Position numbers and translations under genes: made by a program. The notes under the pieces were generated by a model. That model was given only the letters and a program-made list of their open reading frames with translations. It was not told the origin of the DNA and searched no databases. Shown piece by piece: positions 1 through 53,364 of a DNA stretch of 64,000 nucleotides. Every line of letters begins with the position of its first letter. Position 1 is the stretch's first letter. Origin of the DNA: Solibacillus sp. FSL H8-0538 (lineage in GTDB: Bacteria; Bacillota; Bacilli; Bacillales_A; Planococcaceae); contig NZ_JBBOPI010000001.1 of NCBI RefSeq assembly GCF_038003525.1, forward strand, positions 2,907,001 to 2,971,000, in the 5' to 3' direction.

Positions 1-351
1 TCCTTCGTGTACCATTTGTACAATAACAGTAGAATTATAGCCTTGGTTAATTAATGAAGCAGTCCAACATTTAACTATATTGATAAACTCTGTAGTGTTT
101 ATTTTTTTGTTAAATTGTATAGATTTTTTCACTGTATTGAAATCAACAGAAGCTCTTTTAGACTCCAAAGGTAACTCAATGTACCATTTGTTTTCTTTAA
201 ATTCACATTTACTTAGTTGATGTATCCTCATTTCATCCTCAAGGATTATTTTCGATTCCTCAATAGAGCTGTTTAAATCATAACTACTATCCGAATATTC
301 CTGAACTTTATCTATTAATTCCTCCATAATATCCGTTATCGTAGTTTCCAT
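1..351 (-). CDS. Third gene of a recombinase-trio element (partial, runs off the left edge)
   Basis: An open frame reads on the minus strand from an ATG at 351 to the window edge (117 codons, no stop). An AGAGGG ribosome-binding site lies a few bases upstream. It starts 12 bases after the stop of the 885-residue recombinase, so it is the third cistron of that operon. The visible part is acidic and lysine-rich and shows no catalytic motif I recognise. In Tn554 and related elements tnpA and tnpB are followed by a third gene (tnpC), so position suggests an accessory transposition protein. That function is inferred from position only. The C-terminus is outside the window, so it could also prove to be a third recombinase. 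Confidence 0.6.
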   Translation of the reverse strand, partial: METTITDIMEELIDKVQEYSDSSYDLNSSIEESKIILEDEMRIHQLSKCEFKENKWYIELPLESKRASVDFNTVKKSIQFNKKINTTEFINIVKCWTASLINQGYNSTVIVQMVHEG

Positions 352-363
352 AGAATCCCTCTT

Positions 364-3021
364 TCAATCTATAAATTGTAAGTTCTCTGGGTCTGGCTGT
401 TCTTCTAATTCATTTATTACATTATTTAATTCATTATTAATCAACATCACTATTATTTCTTCCCCAAACTTTCTTTTGGCTTCCATAATACTTGTATAAT
501 CTCTAAGCAATAAGTTATAAAGTTTATTTTTCTCTCCTAATGGAATATCTGCTTTTCTTGCTATGTCCTTATACTTAATAAGAGTTCGCTTTATCCTCTT
601 AGCAATAACGCTAATTGTATAAAAATGTGGGATAGAAAACGGACAATTACTACATTCAATTTCATTAGAGATGCATTTAGAAAATAAACATTGGTATGTT
701 TGTTCTTTTGCTGGTGAAAGACCAAGATTAATTAAATTTAATTTTTTCTTTAACTCTTCTTTAGGCATTTCTTCAAATAATTTACCTAAATCTTCTCGTT
801 CTTGTGATAAATAATTCAAATAAGCTGTTGTATCTTCCAATTTAACAACGTCACCAAATAAAGCCCTTAGTTCGATTGACTTTTTTGTTTGCTCTATTCT
901 ACTGACAGGACTCTCTCCAATTAAGAAATGATTTAATTGAGAATATATAAATCCAAAGTAGCCTGTATCAAATAGCTGCCCCATGATAAAATCTAAATGC
1001 TCTGGAGGAAGTTGAATGTAAATGTTAGAAGTTTCCCTGCTTACATGACCCCGTAAATGTTGAGCAATCGTTACCGGATCGCTATCTAAAGTAGATTCAA
1101 TTACTGAACTTGTATAAGTTAAAACAGTTCTATTCATTTTTCTGGATTCAAATCTAAAATCATCTGAATGATTTTTAAAAAATGAATCATGAGAACTGGA
1201 GCTAACTCTATTCTCCTTAGTATAAAAATGAATTAGATTCGATTCATCATCAAGATGTAATTTTCTACACCTAAACTCACATATTAAAATTGCATAAGCC
1301 ATTGGCAAGGTTAGTAAACTGGAACAATAAAATGTTGCCTTTTCTTTAGTCTTATTATGTTCAAACCATTGTACCTGATAAAAACTTACGATTTTTAATG
1401 CATCACTGTAAGTTAATTTAAGGTTTTCTAATGATTCAATAGTATTTATATTCAATTCATCAAACGAGGAACTATGAAAGCGTGGAAAGTCTAAAACAGT
1501 GCCATTTCTCCAACCATTGTTCATGTGTAGCAAAACATATAACCACATAGAATCATATTTTTTATATTCCTTACTATTTGTTAATCCTTTTTTAATATCT
1601 TCTATCGCTAATCTTTTATGGGTATCATAGTCACTAACATAATTATTCAAACTCAAATATTCCTCAACAGAGTAAATTTCTTTTTCTTTTATGCCTTTGC
1701 TATTATTGCTATGTTTAAAATTTATTTTTGACAAGTCAAAAATTCTTTTCCCAAATCTCTGTTCACTATTTTGTGTGATGTTAAACAGGAAAGAACGTAG
1801 TTCTTTTCTATGCTTAAACGAGACATGGTTATTAAACAACCCTAAATTAAGTTCTTTCTCAGAGAACTCACTAATTTCTTTACTACCTATAAAATCAACA
1901 AAGATTTTTGTGATTTTAGATAAATCTACCACTCTTCTAATACAACTTGTTCTATTTCCGTTCATTTTTTTCAGTTTCCAATCAACATATTGAAACCAAA
2001 GTTTTTTAGTTATAGGAGCCTTAAAGACAACATTTTTAATCTTTAAAATTTCTCGGAATAAAAGATGAAAATCATTTGTTGTTACATCACATAATTTTAC
2101 TATTTCTTTTTCTTTCGTAAGTTCATAAAGGTAGTTATCCATTTCTGCTTTGTAATAAAGAGTAGTTCTACCTTTATATTTATCTATTCGTGCTAAATGT
2201 GGAATCTCAGCTGAAAAGGTATATTTTTTTAAAACTTCATGATTCCCTTTTGTTGCACCATAATCGTTATACAATTTAGTTACTTCATCATAGGTGTAAG
2301 TTTTTTGTAATAACTCATTACAAGCCTTAATTTGCGAGTCTTTTAAAAATTGAAAATCTTCTTTTTGTATGTATGTTTTCTGATTTCTTCCTTTAAAAAT
2401 TTCAATGTTATATTCTTTAATTGCCGCATAAAAATTATGAGGAGATAATTTCAAATCTCTCATAGCATCTTTTACTCCTATTTTGTTTTTAAGCACAATT
2501 AAGTCTACTTTTTTAACATACATATGTTCATATTTTTTTTGGAATAAAAAAATCCTAATCTTTCTTTTTATTAAACTATCTTTAAAGTGACTAATATCTG
2601 AATATATATTGAGTTCGTTAAAGGCTTCAGAAATTGAAATAAACTCCTGCTGAAATTGAAAATAACTACTTTTCTTAATCCAATTTTTTTGTTTTCCGTA
2701 AATATGATTATCGAAATTTATCATTTCAAGACATGTTTGTTCAACTAAATTTTTTACACTGGAAATATTCACTCTAGGATTCTCATTCCCTGTAAGGCTG
2801 CAAACAAATTCACGTATTGAAATATGATCTTCACGAAACAATTCTATCTTTTTTAGAAATGTTTCAAAAGATTTTATAGAAATATAAGTAAGTCCATTTT
2901 CTTCTTTTGCTTCAATTTCACCTTGTTTTATAAGCTCTTGTACTTTTGATTGACTTGCTAATCTATAATTTTTTAATTTATAAATTTCATTTAACTGGTA
3001 AAAGAATGCGTATCCTTCCAT
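364..3021 (-). CDS. Large tyrosine recombinase, TnpB-like (885 aa)
   Basis: This is the second cistron of the element; its ATG directly follows the stop codon of the upstream integrase. The N-terminal half (about 1-340) has helix-rich segments I cannot assign, perhaps DNA-binding. The C-terminal part (about 480-680) looks like a tyrosine-recombinase catalytic domain. Arg505 is in a WRNGTV box, Arg631 in KMNR where HxxR is usual, His659 in an LRGH box, and the putative nucleophile is Tyr668. Four cysteines near residues 790-815 (pattern C-x5-C-x6-C-x2-C) look like a zinc knuckle. It is longer than Tn554 TnpB (about 630 aa, from memory). Role: strand exchange together with the 440-aa integrase. 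The family call is fairly safe; the catalytic assignment is by eye. Confidence 0.75.
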   Translation of the reverse strand: MEGYAFFYQLNEIYKLKNYRLASQSKVQELIKQGEIEAKEENGLTYISIKSFETFLKKIELFREDHISIREFVCSLTGNENPRVNISSVKNLVEQTCLEMINFDNHIYGKQKNWIKKSSYFQFQQEFISISEAFNELNIYSDISHFKDSLIKRKIRIFLFQKKYEHMYVKKVDLIVLKNKIGVKDAMRDLKLSPHNFYAAIKEYNIEIFKGRNQKTYIQKEDFQFLKDSQIKACNELLQKTYTYDEVTKLYNDYGATKGNHEVLKKYTFSAEIPHLARIDKYKGRTTLYYKAEMDNYLYELTKEKEIVKLCDVTTNDFHLLFREILKIKNVVFKAPITKKLWFQYVDWKLKKMNGNRTSCIRRVVDLSKITKIFVDFIGSKEISEFSEKELNLGLFNNHVSFKHRKELRSFLFNITQNSEQRFGKRIFDLSKINFKHSNNSKGIKEKEIYSVEEYLSLNNYVSDYDTHKRLAIEDIKKGLTNSKEYKKYDSMWLYVLLHMNNGWRNGTVLDFPRFHSSSFDELNINTIESLENLKLTYSDALKIVSFYQVQWFEHNKTKEKATFYCSSLLTLPMAYAILICEFRCRKLHLDDESNLIHFYTKENRVSSSSHDSFFKNHSDDFRFESRKMNRTVLTYTSSVIESTLDSDPVTIAQHLRGHVSRETSNIYIQLPPEHLDFIMGQLFDTGYFGFIYSQLNHFLIGESPVSRIEQTKKSIELRALFGDVVKLEDTTAYLNYLSQEREDLGKLFEEMPKEELKKKLNLINLGLSPAKEQTYQCLFSKCISNEIECSNCPFSIPHFYTISVIAKRIKRTLIKYKDIARKADIPLGEKNKLYNLLLRDYTSIMEAKRKFGEEIIVMLINNELNNVINELEEQPDPENLQFID

Positions 3022-4344
3022 TTATAAGTTCCTCAAATCTTCGATTTTAGTGTATATTTTATTATTAGCCTGAACAGTTGCTCTTGCTAAAATTTCAATT
3101 GCATCTTCAGTTTTCTTTTTAACATTCTGCTCTTCAATATAACTTTGTGCTGATTCTATATTTGAATCTCCTCTCGCAATAGCAACTTCACTTGCAGACC
3201 ATCTGAGTAAAAACACAAGCATATTAGTGTAAATCCCTCTTCCAATATGCGTAGACCAAGGTTTTGAGGTTAAAAGCAAATAATCCTTTTCACTTGCTTC
3301 TAAAACATACTCCAAGAATTTATCTTTTATCTTTGTATAACGTTCCCAATATGCCATTCCTGTAATTGGCTTTCCAGTGTGAATAGAACAAAACATCGCT
3401 TTGTTATTTTTTATTTTTCCTGCTCTTTCTAACCTTAGTAAAATCTCTTTATGCTTTTCATACAACTCTAATACAATTGGTACTTTAAATATTGCTTGAG
3501 TCCTTACTTTTTTCACTTGTTCAAAAACAGTAAGTTCCTTATCAGAAAAAAGTATTCTCCAATTGTCTTGTATATTAATTGTAAACTCTCCCGAACCGTT
3601 CTTCTGAGGTTCTTTAATGCTCCTTCGTAACAGATTTACAACTTCTCCTCTCCTTAACCCTCCATAGAATTGAAAAGCAATTCCTAACGCGATATCAGGG
3701 GCTTCTAATTCTGCAACTCTTAAAAATAGATTTACAAGATCTAATCTACCCATACCAAAATCATGTAACTTTCTTTCTTTTATTTGCTGTTTATTTATTT
3801 TTTTATTGGGATACTCTGTACCAAGTTCAAAATTATCAAAAGGTGAGATGGTTATTATTTTCCTGTCACCTTTAAAGTTTCTTATTTCTTCCCTATATTG
3901 TACATTTTCTTTAATAATTTGTTGTTCCTTTAACCAACGAAAGAATCTTACAAGAATACGCTCAGAACGAAAAACTTGTGAAGGTTGAATCTGTTCTAAT
4001 TTTACCCTATTAGTTAAGAACGAAATATACCTTGCTCCATGTTGTAGTTCTAATCCATAAATACCTTCCTTCTCCAAATGTAAAAACATTTCATCTTCGT
4101 TCTCAATACACTCTAAAATAAAATGTAGAAACTTTTTTATCTCTTCTGCATAATTTTGCTGAGTGTTAATAGATAACGATTTTCTATCCAATTCGCTTTT
4201 TATAAAATTTGTTAATGGATGTGGGTATAATAAACCCGTTTCCTTGTCTTTAGTACACAAAAATACTTTCACATTTGAAATTAGTTCGCCATTCCTAATT
4301 TCATTTATTTTCATTTGTTTTACTACAAATTCAAAATCTCCCAT
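3022..4344 (-). CDS. Tyrosine recombinase / integrase, TnpA-like (440 aa)
   Basis: First gene of the recombinase operon. A strong AGGAGGG site precedes the ATG at 4344. An N-terminal SAM-like core-binding domain (about 45-145) is followed by the catalytic domain. Visible catalytic residues are Arg231/Arg232 in GGLRRGEV (box I), His366 and Arg369 in HIGR (HxxR) and Tyr402 in the QSYI segment. The stop is immediately followed by the ATG of the 885-aa recombinase, suggesting translational coupling. Its 5' end faces the junction with the truncated DUF72 gene, as expected for a recombinase sitting at the end of its own element. The DNA is clearly more AT-rich than the suf, glt and fad regions, consistent with transfer. 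Confidence 0.88.
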   Translation of the reverse strand: MGDFEFVVKQMKINEIRNGELISNVKVFLCTKDKETGLLYPHPLTNFIKSELDRKSLSINTQQNYAEEIKKFLHFILECIENEDEMFLHLEKEGIYGLELQHGARYISFLTNRVKLEQIQPSQVFRSERILVRFFRWLKEQQIIKENVQYREEIRNFKGDRKIITISPFDNFELGTEYPNKKINKQQIKERKLHDFGMGRLDLVNLFLRVAELEAPDIALGIAFQFYGGLRRGEVVNLLRRSIKEPQKNGSGEFTINIQDNWRILFSDKELTVFEQVKKVRTQAIFKVPIVLELYEKHKEILLRLERAGKIKNNKAMFCSIHTGKPITGMAYWERYTKIKDKFLEYVLEASEKDYLLLTSKPWSTHIGRGIYTNMLVFLLRWSASEVAIARGDSNIESAQSYIEEQNVKKKTEDAIEILARATVQANNKIYTKIEDLRNL

Positions 4345-4476
4345 AATGCCCTCCTCAGAAAATAACTACACCTCTACTCTTTAGAGGACTTTATTCCCCT
4401 AGCACCCATAAGTAAATATTCTCAACACATTATTCATCTAATATTATCTTAATAAAGAAATATTTACCACAAAAAA

Positions 4477-4502
4477 AGGACTATTCGTGTGAAATAGTCC
4501 TC
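4477..4502 (-). terminator. Hairpin terminator near the element end
   Basis: GGACTATT and AATAGTCC form an 8-bp stem around a short loop. Read on the minus strand the stem is followed by a run of seven T. It would stop transcripts coming from the truncated DUF72 gene before they enter the recombinase operon. Confidence 0.7.
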
Positions 4503-4521
4503 CCAAAATACATTGATATAT

Positions 4522-4551
4522 ATGGTTATTAATATATATATATATAACCAT
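4522..4551. repeat. Palindrome at the presumed element end
   Basis: ATGGTTAT (4522-4529) and ATAACCAT (4544-4551) are perfect inverted arms separated by an alternating TA tract. It lies within about 30 bases of the junction with the DUF72 gene, so it may be a recombinase-binding site of the element end. It could also simply be an AT-rich hairpin. Confidence 0.4.
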
Positions 4552-4573
4552 GTTTATATTGTACCAATATCCC

Positions 4574-5095
4574 CTAATATAAATCACAAACCGTGTGAAT
4601 CAATTCATGCGTTTTAAGAAAAGCAAGCGTTTTATCCTTCATAGTATTAGCGTACCATGTTTGATTACGAAATTCGATCGCTATTGGAAAACCCTGTAAT
4701 TGTTGTTTCACATAGCGAATATATTGTACATTTTTACTCGTACAATCAAACCAAGGAGGAAACTGAACAAGAATCATCGCTAGCTTGCCATACTTTTGAA
4801 ACACTACGGCACATTCTTTAAATGCATTGAACATATCATTGCGCGTTTCGTAAGGCAAATCATCGCGTAAGTGCCCAGTCATCCCTTGAAAAGCTTTCAC
4901 AACAAAACGAAAATTATCTGGTGTATCCTTGCACCATTTCTCTATATTAGCGGACGACGGAATGGCATAAAAAGATGTATCTACTTCGACAGTCGGAAAA
5001 TGGCCACTGTAATCAAATAATTTGTCCCGTGCAGACGTTACCTGACTATATAATGTTGGATGATCGCCCCAGCCTGTTAAACCTATATAAATCAA
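4574..5095 (-). pseudogene. DUF72 (YunF-like) protein, 3'-truncated by the element
   Basis: The protein starts like YunF-type DUF72 proteins (IYIGLTGWGD) and follows the family until a HTVCD motif. It then ends after only two more residues, at about 173 aa, whereas the family is usually about 270-290 aa. The missing part normally follows exactly this motif, so the gene has lost its C-terminal third, most simply by insertion of the recombinase element. I chose the TTG at 5095: AAGGAG lies 8 bases upstream, and this gives the family N-terminus. The upstream GTG at 5104 overlaps the ribosome-binding site. DUF72 proteins are TIM-barrel-like and of unknown function. The remaining piece is probably not functional. 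Confidence 0.8.
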
Positions 5096-5271
5096 CGTCT
5101 TCACTCCTTTTCCCTATCATAGCATACTAATAGTTGTTAATAAAAACGTGCCTTCCCACCGTTATTGAATTTGCTTATGTAGTTAAAAGTGACTCTAATT
5201 AATCGTTTTACGCATGGGGTAATAAACGAAAGACTCGAATAATAAAATGCATCAGTTGTAGAGAATTTCTA

Positions 5272-5600
5272 AAGTAATTTATGGGTCTCTACCCAAACAG
5301 TTGCTTTACTTTAAAAGAAAGTGTACTACTTTATAAGCACATGGAACGGAAGGCGGCGAGTGTAGCTGACGGCATTCGCCTTTCGCTACAGAGCATAGCT
5401 TCCTGCGGGAAAAGCAAGCGAACCGAGACCCTGGACTGAGGCCAACACGATGTTGGTCACAAAGGCGTTGCCACAGGACGTGGCGTACTTAGCCTTTGTT
5501 CCTTTGTTCCACTGAAGCGGCTCGGTGCTTGCCCGCGGAAAGCGTCCGCCTGGAGTGCAATGTGCAGTTAAGTACAGATTTTTGCGTAGCGCCTTATTTA
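5272..5600 (+). repeat. Dispersed modular repeat, family A, copy 1
   Basis: About 320 bases shared with a second copy at 36345-36667, which lies in the opposite orientation. Shared parts include the left arm (GTACTACTTTATA, then a segment containing GGCATTCGCCTTTCGC) and the right arm (CCCGCGGAAAGCGTCCGCC). A core at 5441-5502 contains CCAACA/TGTTGG and GCCAC/GTGGC palindromes. It is GC-richer than its surroundings and fills the space between the DUF72 relic and the phosphodiesterase gene. Open frames inside it look spurious. Confidence 0.85.
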
Positions 5601-5618
5601 TTAAAGGAGATTATCCAA

Positions 5619-6410
5619 ATGAAACGGATAGCTATTATTTTAGTTGTCGTCATAGTTGGTCTATCGCTATTTTTATTCATGAACAATCAAAACCAGCTTC
5701 CACAACAATTTTTACAAATTTCGCATCGAGGAGCCTCTGCTTATGAATTAGAACATTCGCTAGCCGCTTATGAGTTAGCTCTTGCTCAAGGGACTGATTA
5801 CTTAGAGGTGGATGTTCAGCTAACCAAGGATGGACAGTTAGTTGTAGTTCATGATGATGTTCCTACCTTTGGGGATGGACGGCGCGTTGAACACTATTTA
5901 TTTAGCGAACTGCAACAGGCCCATAGAGCGGATTACGGTGTTCCATTATTAACGGTAGAGGATGCATTTCAGACATTTCCATTTGCAAAATTTTATATTG
6001 AAACTAAATCCAATAGCAAAGACCTCAACGAAAAGCTACTACGTTTAATCGAGCAATATCATTTAGAAGATTCTACTATTATTCAATCCTTTCATAAAGG
6101 TAGTCTTAAGTGGTTTCGAAAGAACAATGATTCCATTCCGCTTATTCAACTACTATCTAAAATAGAGACTGCTAGATTGAGCCGATTAGACTTGTTTTTT
6201 ATTAAACGCTATGCAGATGGCGTTGGGGTAAACGATGCAGTATTTAAGCTTGAAGACGTGGAGAAAATTCACCGAACGCAGTTGAAAGTTCATGTATATA
6301 CGGTGGATGATGCTGAGCGAATGAGAGAACTAATAGAAGCTGAAGTAGATGGAATTTTTACGAATCGGCCGGATGTGCTACACCGTTTGATTGAAGGAAC
6401 AGTATATTAA
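5619..6410 (+). CDS. Glycerophosphodiester phosphodiesterase family protein, membrane-anchored
   Basis: Hydrolyses glycerophosphodiesters to glycerol 3-phosphate and an alcohol (family knowledge). An N-terminal hydrophobic segment (about residues 4-20) should anchor the catalytic TIM barrel outside the membrane. Catalytic motifs are HRG at residues 36-38, Glu63 and Asp65 in LEVDV, and His78 in VVHDD. The usual ENT triplet after HRG is replaced by LEHS, a mild deviation. The start is the ATG at 5619 with AAAGGAGA eight bases upstream. The open frame extends to 5496, but that extension is repeat sequence. The gene stands alone and is followed by a strong hairpin terminator. Confidence 0.88.
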   Translation: MKRIAIILVVVIVGLSLFLFMNNQNQLPQQFLQISHRGASAYELEHSLAAYELALAQGTDYLEVDVQLTKDGQLVVVHDDVPTFGDGRRVEHYLFSELQQAHRADYGVPLLTVEDAFQTFPFAKFYIETKSNSKDLNEKLLRLIEQYHLEDSTIIQSFHKGSLKWFRKNNDSIPLIQLLSKIETARLSRLDLFFIKRYADGVGVNDAVFKLEDVEKIHRTQLKVHVYTVDDAERMRELIEAEVDGIFTNRPDVLHRLIEGTVY

Positions 6411-6554
6411 ATAAAACATTAAAAGATAAACGATTTTTCTGCAGAAGTTTTTACACATTGCCCATAGTAGAAAGTCAGTAAAATCAACGCATTGCGAATT
6501 ACTCTTTTCAAATAAATTTATTCTTTTTCAAACGCTATCGGCACGTTATACATC

Positions 6555-6585
6555 AAAGACCACCCATTACGGAGTGGTCTTTTTC
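6555..6585 (+). terminator. Rho-independent terminator after the phosphodiesterase gene
   Basis: AGACCAC and GTGGTCT arms enclose a short loop and are followed by a T run. An A run on the other side makes it potentially bidirectional, so it could also serve the small lipoprotein gene on the minus strand. Confidence 0.85.
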
Positions 6586-6634
6586 TGAGATATTTAACTG
6601 GAGCACTCGTTATTTTAAAAATGCAAAATCTTAA

Positions 6635-6808
6635 CTATTGGTTATCATCTTGTTGATCATTTTGATTATCATTTTGATTTTGATCTTCTTGTTGTTCAGA
6701 AGGTTCTTCAGTTGGATCTGGCTCCTGTTCATCATTAGGTGTACCACATCCGAACAATAATCCAATAGATAGTATTGCTGTAAACGTACCTAATATCCTT
6801 TTTTTCAT
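6635..6808 (-). CDS. Small acidic lipoprotein (57 aa)
   Basis: A 57-residue frame on the minus strand begins MKKRILG, has a hydrophobic core and reaches a lipobox LLFGC with the acceptor cysteine at residue 21. The mature part is only about 36 residues and is almost entirely Asp, Glu, Gln, Asn, Pro and Thr, ending in alternating D/N/Q. GAGGTGA lies just upstream of the ATG. It is predicted to be lipid-anchored on the outer face of the membrane. I do not recognise a family. Short lipoproteins of this sort are common in Bacillales; a role as a cell-envelope spacer or decoy is guesswork. It stands alone between the phosphodiesterase terminator and an empty region. Confidence 0.75.
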   Translation of the reverse strand: MKKRILGTFTAILSIGLLFGCGTPNDEQEPDPTEEPSEQQEDQNQNDNQNDQQDDNQ

Positions 6809-7200
6809 GTATTCACCTCATTCTAAGGAAATTTTATTCACCATTATTATTGTCTATATTTTTATTACGTATACGGTATAAGCAGCAGACCGAGTTAGAT
6901 TTAAATAAAAGTAAGAAAATTGAACAAAATAGACCTTAAAACTTCTATCAAAAGTTTCATTGTAACTATAGAATATTTTGCAAGTCTAAATGAAACTTGC
7001 AATGTAAGTACTTAAATATAGATCTACGTCAAGATTTCAGACAAACTTCAGTTAACTTTTTTAATGCGCAACTTCCATTTTGCAGATTAGCTGCATCATA
7101 AATTCTTTGGATGTTACAGCAACAAAGACCTGTTCATGTTCTTTTGCCCTACCCTTCCTCCCCTTTGATGAATAGAATAATGAGGAAAGGAGGTGTTTTT
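6809..7200. other. Intergenic region, no gene seen
   Basis: About 390 AT-rich bases between two divergent small genes. I see no ORF with a ribosome-binding site, no RNA gene and no clear repeat. It should hold the promoters of both flanking genes, but no consensus pair stood out. Confidence 0.5.
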
Positions 7201-7344
7201 ATGGGGTACTCTGGAAATGTAGGCAGTTATAATTGTAATTACGGAGACAATAATTATGGCTATGGTTCAACATTCGTCCTAATCGTTGTCCTATTCATTC
7301 TTCTAATTATTGTCGGCGCTACTTTCATGCATAAAGGGTATTAA
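7201..7344 (+). CDS. YjcZ-family small sporulation-type membrane protein (47 aa)
   Basis: A textbook AAAGGAGGT site precedes the ATG at 7201. The 47-residue product has a Gly/Tyr/Asn-rich head (about 1-22) followed by a single membrane helix containing [16 protein letters not shown], the hallmark of the YjcZ family. Members are tiny proteins found across spore-forming Bacillales and often associated with spores. Their biochemical role is unknown. The head, with NYG-type repeats, is longer than in minimal members. It appears to be monocistronic. A longer frame opening at 7111 has no ribosome-binding site and is rejected. Confidence 0.85.
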
Positions 7345-7599
7345 CGTTTCTATTGTTTTAGTGTAAAAAATTAGGCTATATCTTCTATTTAGATTGTATG
7401 TTAATGGATATGGATAAAGTTTTCACCATTGTCCTAGATGTTTCTAAAATCAAATAGCCTCCAAAATCTCTTTCGTAAGCTATAACCCCATTGTAATTGT
7501 AGTGTAAAGCTAATTTATCCCCACACCTCTTGGGTTATTATTTTGGGTCATTTTGTATAGGAAGTGATCCTTTTTCTCCCTTTACTGAACAATATCTAT

Positions 7600-7902
7600 A
7601 AATTACCCAATAAAACTTTCTGCATACTCGAGCGTCATGCCTTCGATAAATTACTTGTAGACAATTTGATTTTCTAATCCACCGAAGGAAGGTAATCCCG
7701 TATTCAAATAACACAAATAAACATGCAGCGCCTCCCGGTATTATAAAGCAATTTTAGCCAAGCGTTCGAAGGTTTGTATGAAGCCAGCATCCCAAGCGTT
7801 GGGCACGTAATACAAGAGATTGGGCGGTACGCGAACAAGTGGCGTTAAATCAGGTACGTGAGGAAGAACAGAAGGCTTCATTACGGAAAACTTGATGTCC
7901 AT
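7600..7902 (-). pseudogene. Decayed coding fragment, family not recognised
   Basis: From an ATG at 7902 a 53-codon frame reads protein-like text (start MDIKFSVMKPS, later YYVPNAWDAGF, then TFERLAKIAL) to a TAA at 7741. After this stop, related-looking text (FGGLENQIVYK, then GMTLEYAESFIG) continues in other frames with further stops. This fits a gene broken by frameshifts. It could equally be an intact 53-aa gene followed by noise. I do not recognise the family. Confidence 0.3.
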
Positions 7903-30902: not shown

Positions 30903-31073
30903 GAAAAAACCTTTCTACTTGAAGACATAGTAGAAAGGTTTTCGCATTTTTATACGTTCAACCGTTCTCTCATCTCTCAAAGCTTAACTTTGTGTGACTT
31001 GGCACCTTTTCATCATACATGCTGGTTGCCGGGCTTCATAGGGCACTTCCCTCCGCCTCTCTTTATAAGAGTA
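30903..31073 (-). ncRNA. SAM-I (S-box) riboswitch with terminator, controlling metNPQ
   Basis: On the minus strand the leader shows the S-box core: CTCTTATAAAGAGAGG, then GAGGGAAGTGCCCT, GAAGCCCGGCAACC, AAGGTGCCAA and a 3' GAGAGATGAGAG segment closing the junction. A terminator follows at 30903-30945, with a CCTTTCTACT / AGTAGAAAGG stem and a T run. High SAM should cause termination before metN. The aptamer is complete by eye; pairings were not computed. Confidence 0.93.
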
Positions 31074-36344: not shown

Positions 36345-36667
36345 TTAAGTTGGCTCTACACCAAAATCTGAACTTGACAGCACATTCCACTCCAGGCGGA
36401 CGCTTTCCGCGGGCGTGGCTTGAGCCTCCTCGGGCCAACACGATGTTGGTCACGAAGGCGTTGCCACAGGACGTGGCGTTCTTAGCCTTCGTTCCTAAAC
36501 GTTCGTGCGGGGTCTCAAGGCTCACGCTTTTCCCGCAGGAAGCTTTGCTCTGTAGCGAAAGGCGAATGCCGTCAGCTACACTCGCCGCCCTCCGTTCCAT
36601 GTGCCTATAAAGTAGTACACTTTCTTTTATAGTAAAGGACATATTTTGGTAAAGACCCATTAAGTTA
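36345..36667 (-). repeat. Dispersed modular repeat, family A, copy 2 (fadN/fadA gap)
   Basis: Arms match copy 1 at 5272-5600 in reverse orientation. The core at 36434-36496 is in the same absolute orientation as the core of copy 1 (5441-5502), so core and arms are inverted relative to each other between the copies. The 139-aa frame across it is spurious. Confidence 0.85.
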
Positions 36668-53104: not shown

Positions 53105-53364
53105 CAAATGAGCGTTGACGAGAACATATTAAGCTAGATCTCCCTGTTGGCAGAGAATCAGTGGTTGGTGGAAACTGATACAAAGATCTATGTGAATTTC
53201 ATTCTTCGAGCTTTTTTTATACTACAACTTAGAACAAGTAGTATAAAAACGGATTAAACCGTTATTTAAACCAAGTGGGAAACATGGTTTGTTTCCAATT
53301 AGGGTGGTACCGCGTGAACAGCCACGTCCCTATCGTTACAGATAGAGACGTGGCTTTTTTTGTC
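53105..53364 (+). ncRNA. T-box leader controlling the NSS-family transporter
   Basis: The T-box sequence AGGGTGGTACCGCG lies at 53301-53314. A Stem I-like region upstream has TAGATCT pairing with AGATCTA, the GAATTTCATTCTTCGAGC segment typical of the 3' side of Stem I, and a terminator at 53322-53363 (CCACGTC/GACGTGG stem, seven T). An uncharged tRNA pairing with it should allow readthrough. The specifier codon is not certain; TAT (Tyr) and TGT (Cys) are the best fits by position, with ATG (Met) less likely. Confidence 0.92.

Follow-up and report, generated by a model that had tools for sequence, protein, structure and literature searches.

The stretch of DNA analysed here, called the window, comprises 64,000 nt of the genome of Solibacillus sp. 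FSL H8-0538 (G000:C1:2907001-2971000), and its left end holds part of a mobile element that interrupts a DUF72 (YunF-like) gene. Recombinase genes of the element, its outer end and the 5' half of the interrupted host gene lie side by side, in window coordinates, as follows.

1-4582, no strand assigned: the window's share of an 18,064-bp element; the remainder, left of the window, holds gene D, a ParA-like ATPase, LmuA/LmuB, HNH and helix-turn-helix (HTH) genes and further cargo
1-351, minus strand: 5' part of gene C; the entire gene encodes 586 amino acids (aa)
364-3021, minus strand: gene B, a large recombinase of 885 aa with N-terminal tandem winged-helix-like repeats, a catalytic-type domain and a C-terminal four-cysteine cluster
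3022-4344, minus strand: gene A, in a GinA-like position, a tyrosine recombinase of 440 aa (PHROG integrase, 3.6e-05)
4574-4582, no strand assigned: A-proximal terminal inverted repeat CTAATATAA, the outer end of the element, an exact reverse complement of the distal TTATATTAG
4583-4588, minus strand: A-proximal host core of 6 bp; its coding-strand sequence, TGTGAT, supplies codons C-D of HTVCDEP; the distal copy, TGCGTT, lies outside the window
4589-5104, minus strand: 5' part of the interrupted DUF72 gene, host DNA (open reading frame 4574-5104; Pfam DUF72)

The DUF72 5' fragment (window 4574-5104, minus strand) encodes 176 aa, ends in HTVCDLY followed by a stop codon, and corresponds to positions 1 to about 141-142 of the 217 positions of Pfam DUF72. 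A search of the same genome located the 3' part (positions 142-217) beyond the far end of the element, 18 kb away and in the same orientation, at G000:C1:2893231-2893500 (minus). An earlier note made from the window had reported that the gene loses its C-terminal part after HTVCD, had proposed a leftward search for the absent 3' part, and had placed the element end within a few bases of 4573-4582 with cargo to the left; all of this was borne out. The distal terminal repeat, TTATATTAG, is located at G000:C1:2893519-2893527 and forms a 9-bp inverted repeat with the A-proximal copy; identity between the two ends stops after 9 bp, with no inward continuation. The element spans G000:C1:2893519-2911582. 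Joining the flanks in silico, minus the element and the distal 6 bp, restored a DUF72 gene of 287 codons that reads HTVCDEPQAG at the join and contains no stop. Among 121 genomes of the family that were searched, DUF72 was matched in 114 and absent from 7, and in 112 of the 114 it occupied a single frame of 258 aa or longer; only the Solibacillus genome and G118, with an insertion of its own, differed. The short gene that the note had allowed for in relatives is thus not what they carry.

On the host coding strand, the junction nearest gene A is GTT-TGTGAT-TTATATTAG (element start) and the distal one CTAATATAA (element end)-TGCGTT-GAACCG. Residues at the break were read in 39 DUF72 loci from 37 genomes, with a pattern that left the D position free, and were C-D-E-P in 38 and A-D-E-P in one. 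The aspartate is thus present in 39 of 39 loci, which identifies TGTGAT as the core native to the host; TGCGTT would encode valine for aspartate and came with the element. In our reading, for which confidence is high, the element integrated by tyrosine-recombinase strand exchange, with an overlap of 6 bp, at a fixed DUF72 codon between HTVCD and EPQAG and thereby split the gene. The host 6 bp would be kept at the gene-A end on integration, while the 6 bp of the previous site, brought by a circular form, would be left at the distal end. We infer the circular intermediate, the order of strand exchange and the role of each protein. DUF72 function may also have been lost, although a truncated fragment alone does not prove loss of gene function.

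Genes A, B, C and D are close-packed or overlapping next to the element's right end, and all four are open. The earlier note's two tyrosine recombinases and third gene correspond to A and B followed by gene C, which is complete beyond the window. In gene A, R231, H366, R369 and Y402 are invariant in 11 of 11 aligned sequences. Catalytic-type residues of gene B are R505, K628, R631, H659 and Y668; across 11 sequences R505, H659, Y668 and the four cysteines are invariant and K628 and R631 nearly so, and across 43 sequences H659 and Y668 are invariant, R505 is nearly so, and K628 and R631 drop off the list of positions conserved at 90%. Gene B gave a weak HTH_17 match, under the Pfam cut-off. Its AlphaFold model predicts, with moderate confidence, that the N-terminal third forms a row of helix-helix-strand-strand units. 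Foldseek ranked XerA first, XerH second and Tn1549 Int fourth for this model (best E 3.3e-3, pTM 0.37), with no match at E <= 0.001. Gene C matched Pfam Phage_integrase at E 0.0011, weaker than the Pfam cut-off; R381, H404, Y413 and four cysteines are present in 10 of 10 sequences and R235 in 9 of 10. Judged from its sequence, gene C is a relative of the tyrosine recombinases rather than a small TnpC-like gene. The fourth gene of the operon, D (247 aa), is by position and size the likely counterpart of TnpC/GinD; its predicted structure comprises a small N-terminal domain, a 63-residue helix and further helices, and had no PDB match with E <= 0.001. In PHROGs, A of the Solibacillus element matched only a generic integrase and B, weakly, a family of unknown function. 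No phage record matched gene A, and 4 of 72,556 plasmid records did.

Gene B was matched in 12 of 200 genomes of the family, including that of Solibacillus, which has one copy. In the family elements inspected, tblastn placed homologues of A, B and C close together. An alignment scan with gene A, using one genome per species, yielded 69 loci, all from Bacillota by record title except one Arthrobacter; that record (L104, Arthrobacter beigongshangensis) may carry a mislabelled title. Downstream of A, a candidate B was extracted at 63 of these loci, a candidate C at 59 and a candidate D at 52, by a rule of size and position rather than by homology of each gene. Eight DUF72 insertions were identified, the Solibacillus one included, four at each of two sites. 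Site 1, after HTVCD or a variant, is occupied in Solibacillus, Peribacillus asahii, Neobacillus mesonae and N. vireti, and both halves of the gene were found in each case; the P. asahii and N. mesonae insertions have the same terminal repeat as the Solibacillus element. Site 2, after FYA near residue 47, is occupied in Ureibacillus sinduriensis, U. chungkukjangi, Lysinibacillus fusiformis and Bacillus sp. HNG; draft assemblies of U. chungkukjangi and L. fusiformis place the halves on separate contigs, and the 3' part in L. fusiformis is broken once more. Element ends at site 2 read TTATAGG in Ureibacillus and TTGTACATCT in Bacillus sp. HNG, with a normalised A score of 0.33 and an identical codon. 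DUF72 is a repeatedly used integration gene, entered at two exact codons by two recombinase groups. A weak search of the open-licence literature found no mention of DUF72 as an integration site, which does not imply its absence from print.

Twenty insertions were read at both ends (8 in DUF72, 3 in radC, 3 in comGA and 6 in topB), with cores assigned by eye. Host and foreign cores were distinguishable in ten, and the host core was at the A end in all ten: DUF72 in Solibacillus, P. asahii, U. sinduriensis, U. chungkukjangi, L. fusiformis and Bacillus sp. HNG, comGA in three genomes, and topB in G206. The same polarity, with the host 6-bp core at the same end, appears in passages of the papers on SE elements (PMC10214605, PMC9345347). 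A reading of the radC insertions as having the host core at the far end was dropped, as both cores are plausible RadC codons, judged partly against other RadC sequences. Three of nine topB genomes (G207, G210, G212) lie outside the set of 20. In G208, whose A end carries GTTCAA, two candidate topB 5' halves occur on a different contig, where the cores are GTTCAA and GTGCAA.

Cargo of the Solibacillus element includes a ParA-like ATPase, a weakly TnsA-like protein, LmuA, LmuB, an HNH protein, a Cro/C1-type regulator and several genes without a match. LmuA and LmuB form an anti-phage Lamassu pair (PADLOC, 1.4e-77 and 6.9e-151, respectively), side by side in frames L004 6952-7953 and 5319-6989. 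The small Cro/C1-type regulator recurs at 44-77% identity (L004 3315-3674, L063 3728-4081, L065, L069, L076, L079 and L081). The U. sinduriensis element carries a complete leucyl-tRNA-synthetase-like gene, named by eye (L063 8464-10881). The interval from the DUF72 junction to A in the N. mesonae element contains a frame of about 180 aa that is HTH-like at its start (L083 7050-7989), and a 63-aa stretch ahead of A in L085 and L086 resembles it. The far end of the Solibacillus element is AT-rich and, by eye, has no frame of at least 60 aa from L004 1019 to 1426. The earlier note had called the recombinase DNA very AT-rich, which holds inside the element (24-33% GC over window 1-4500, compared with 39-44% over 4751-6000); GC is also 30-34% at 6501-7750, outside the element, and composition alone is therefore insufficient as a border marker. 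Two copies of the Bacillaceae-1 RNA (RF01690) are present on the minus strand at window 5442-5508, in the GC-richer patch just beyond the element, and at 36435-36501; a T-box leader is located at 53106-53334 (plus) and an S-adenosylmethionine (SAM) riboswitch at 30967-31071 (minus).

A gene truncated on the A side was assigned at 38 of the 69 loci, with both ends read in 17 and the A-proximal half only in 21; the 31 loci without a target are contig ends, have neighbours only, or are ambiguous. Targets were topB (9), DUF72 (7), rarA (5), radC (3), polY (3), ATP-dependent DNA ligase (3), radA (2), lemA (2), comGA (1), thyA (1), mrfA (1) and a Band_7 (flotillin-like) gene (1), a total of 12 distinct genes including DUF72; near-identical elements and related insertions at the same site are among the 38, which are thus not 38 independent events. 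Target genes were named by us with support from searches, and loci were assigned to topB by eye. L095 and L103, lemA-like by their neighbours, were left out of the count, and the fragment at L094 had no Pfam match. Three relatives (L099, L101, L112) split radC at one site; radC is the target of Tn554. L087 (Domibacillus) and L140 (Clostridium), with a normalised A similarity of 0.12, both truncate a RarA-like gene near its Walker B motif, gene and motif alike being identified by eye.

Genes of DNA repair, recombination, topology, precursor supply or uptake account for 28 of the 38 loci and, DUF72 excluded, for 9 of 11 distinct genes. The binomial P for 9 of 11 is 5.0e-10 at a background of 6% and 1.9e-5 at 20%, both backgrounds being assumed and the loci being non-independent. 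This target bias is the interesting part of the collection, and its cause is unproven. It may simply be a by-product, with elements needing genes that are conserved yet dispensable, many of which happen to be repair genes; we give this account about an even chance. lemA and the Band_7 gene are among the targets, as it would predict, and conserved motifs are hit at several sites (VQTPTL of TopB, GPTG of ComGA, HNHPSG of RadC), but DNA-handling genes still predominate among the named targets at the more generous background.

The topB insertions also bear on this account. In all four single-contig cases read (G204, G205, G206, G209), an intact topB lies between the broken halves, so function may be retained, and a further topB is found elsewhere in the genome. 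The carried copy is divergent in G204, G205 and G206, scoring 460-469 bits, and scores 848 bits in G209; G212 appears from its coordinates to be a fifth such case, its ends being unread. Carriage of an intact topB argues, for that gene, against a simple 'disable repair' explanation. A general rule that islands carry a replacement for whichever gene they disrupt was considered and rejected: this is true for topB, but such a copy is present in 0 of 6 single-contig DUF72 cases (G000, G168, G200-G203). None of the three radC genomes showed an unbroken radC, and one has an extra fragment.

A role of the winged-helix array of B in reading the target was not supported. The N-terminal part of B was the least similar region in 27 of 31 same-target pairs that had a B score; three of the other four involve L102, which has an incomplete B, and the fourth is tied at 1.00. 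Similarity of this part was as low as 0.05 between L106 and L109, two elements at DUF72 site 2, and 0.06-0.15 in topB VQTPTL pairs, compared with 0.27-0.61 for A, the C-terminal part of B and C in the same pairs. Over 643 distant pairs, only 6 of them same-target and thus too few for any further conclusion, the area under the curve for same-target recognition was 0.862 for the B N-terminal part, 0.863 for A, 0.944 for the B C-terminal part and 0.907 for C; L095 and L103 were labelled lemA in these comparisons by their neighbours only.

A more speculative account, which we regard as possible but doubtful, is that a Bacillota branch of GInt-like elements evolved to target, and often switch off, genes of repair, recombination and uptake (topB, rarA, radC, radA, polY, ligase, comGA, mrfA), with DUF72 belonging to the same functional class. 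Were this so, insertion would shield the island from removal by transformation and homologous recombination, or ease the passage of repair-sensitive nicked intermediates; transformation has been described, in the portion of the source consulted, as a route for curing mobile elements (PMC4774983). The DUF72 protein Tm1631 is a predicted endonuclease-IV-like DNA enzyme according to passages of another paper (PMC4939058), and together with the target set this prediction is a lead on DUF72 function, not evidence. The targets may thus offer a testable link between these islands and DNA repair or transformation, as well as a functional clue for DUF72. We found no open-licence paper that combines topoisomerase III, comGA and radC targets with insertion by ginABCD-type integrases.

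The element belongs to an already known kind, GInt/SE-like, and is not a strict Tn554. We are confident that it is a GInt/SE-type integrated island, with three tyrosine recombinases and a small fourth protein, at a fixed DUF72 codon. The earlier note had filed its genes as a Tn554-like TnpA/TnpB/TnpC set, which does not fit a recombinase-like third gene of 586 aa and a fourth of 247 aa. A true Tn554-family transposon, with TnpA, TnpB and TnpC, would account for the tandem recombinases, the 6-bp footprint and the relatives that split radC; it is very unlikely, as a further recombinase relative occupies the third position and is followed by gene D, and one of the four SE genes has no counterpart in Tn554 according to PMC10214605. 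Marginally less probable again is a decayed island with no recent movement, its ends lying by chance inside an old DUF72 pseudogene: the single copy of gene B speaks for it, and against it stand an operon whose four genes are all open, a perfectly matched inverted repeat, and DUF72 halves that give one stop-free frame when joined. The element may still be mobile.

Several points weigh against assignment to the GInt/SE group and against the integration history proposed for it. No NCBIfam match at E <= 0.01 was obtained for A, B, C or D. The assignment was made by gene layout, ends and cores, with GInt and SE proteins compared by description only. GinC is reported to lack the first arginine, whereas gene C mostly retains it as R235; the loss is, in the passages concerned, an observation by the authors and not part of the definition of GInts (PMC5385486). 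Excision and the circular form are proposed for an element known as sequence alone. At genus level the comparison comprises the Solibacillus genome only, with no same-species pair of occupied and empty sites. In the other ten insertions with both ends read (two in DUF72, three in radC, five in topB), the two cores either match each other or each suit the target gene, and so provide no test of polarity; such cores suggest that the previous site may have been the same gene in another host.

Among known systems, RIT elements share three recombinases in tandem, but the archetype is described with proteins of 315-410 aa and 34-bp inverted repeats (PMC10214605), whereas the recombinases of the Solibacillus element measure 440, 885 and 586 aa and are accompanied by a fourth gene, and its terminal repeat is 9 bp long. 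Tn554 differs in having two recombinases and TnpC, compared with three recombinases and D. Tn554 shares radC as a target with relatives of the Solibacillus element. A 6-bp footprint is, in an excerpt of the SE work, common to SEs and Tn554-related elements (PMC10214605).

SEs show a four-gene layout with a looser likeness (PMC10214605). They share the four-gene operon, with a 6-bp host 'fingerprint' beside the first recombinase and a carried-in 6-bp 'footprint' at the distal end (PMC10214605, PMC9345347), and one SE reportedly complements the gene that it interrupts (bcp; PMC9345347), comparable with the topB copy in topB-inserted elements. They differ in host range, being reported, in the sections of the SE literature used here, from Gammaproteobacteria and not from other taxa. 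Circularization that leaves no empty site is a further trait of SEs, and GInts are characterised by a circular form and by a need for all four genes in excision and integration. The resemblance to GInts, with their ginABCD four-gene layout and three integrases (as outlined in PMC5385486), includes a four-gene operon at one end, variable cargo and a short AT-rich far end, as well as imperfect flanking repeats, a 6-nt overlap and sharp site choice (PMC5385486). In both groups distant members use one site, ssb in GInts and DUF72 site 2, topB and rarA here. Two differences stand beside that of GinC: B has a modelled, winged-helix-like repeat array at its N-terminus, and GInts are described at gene ends, 5' ends or in intergenic positions, probably without full inactivation (PMC5385486), whereas DUF72, radC, comGA and topB are split mid-gene. 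With the elements described here, GInt-like islands gain a large, mappable Bacillota family with exact ends and readable 6-bp tags of the 'where was I before' kind.

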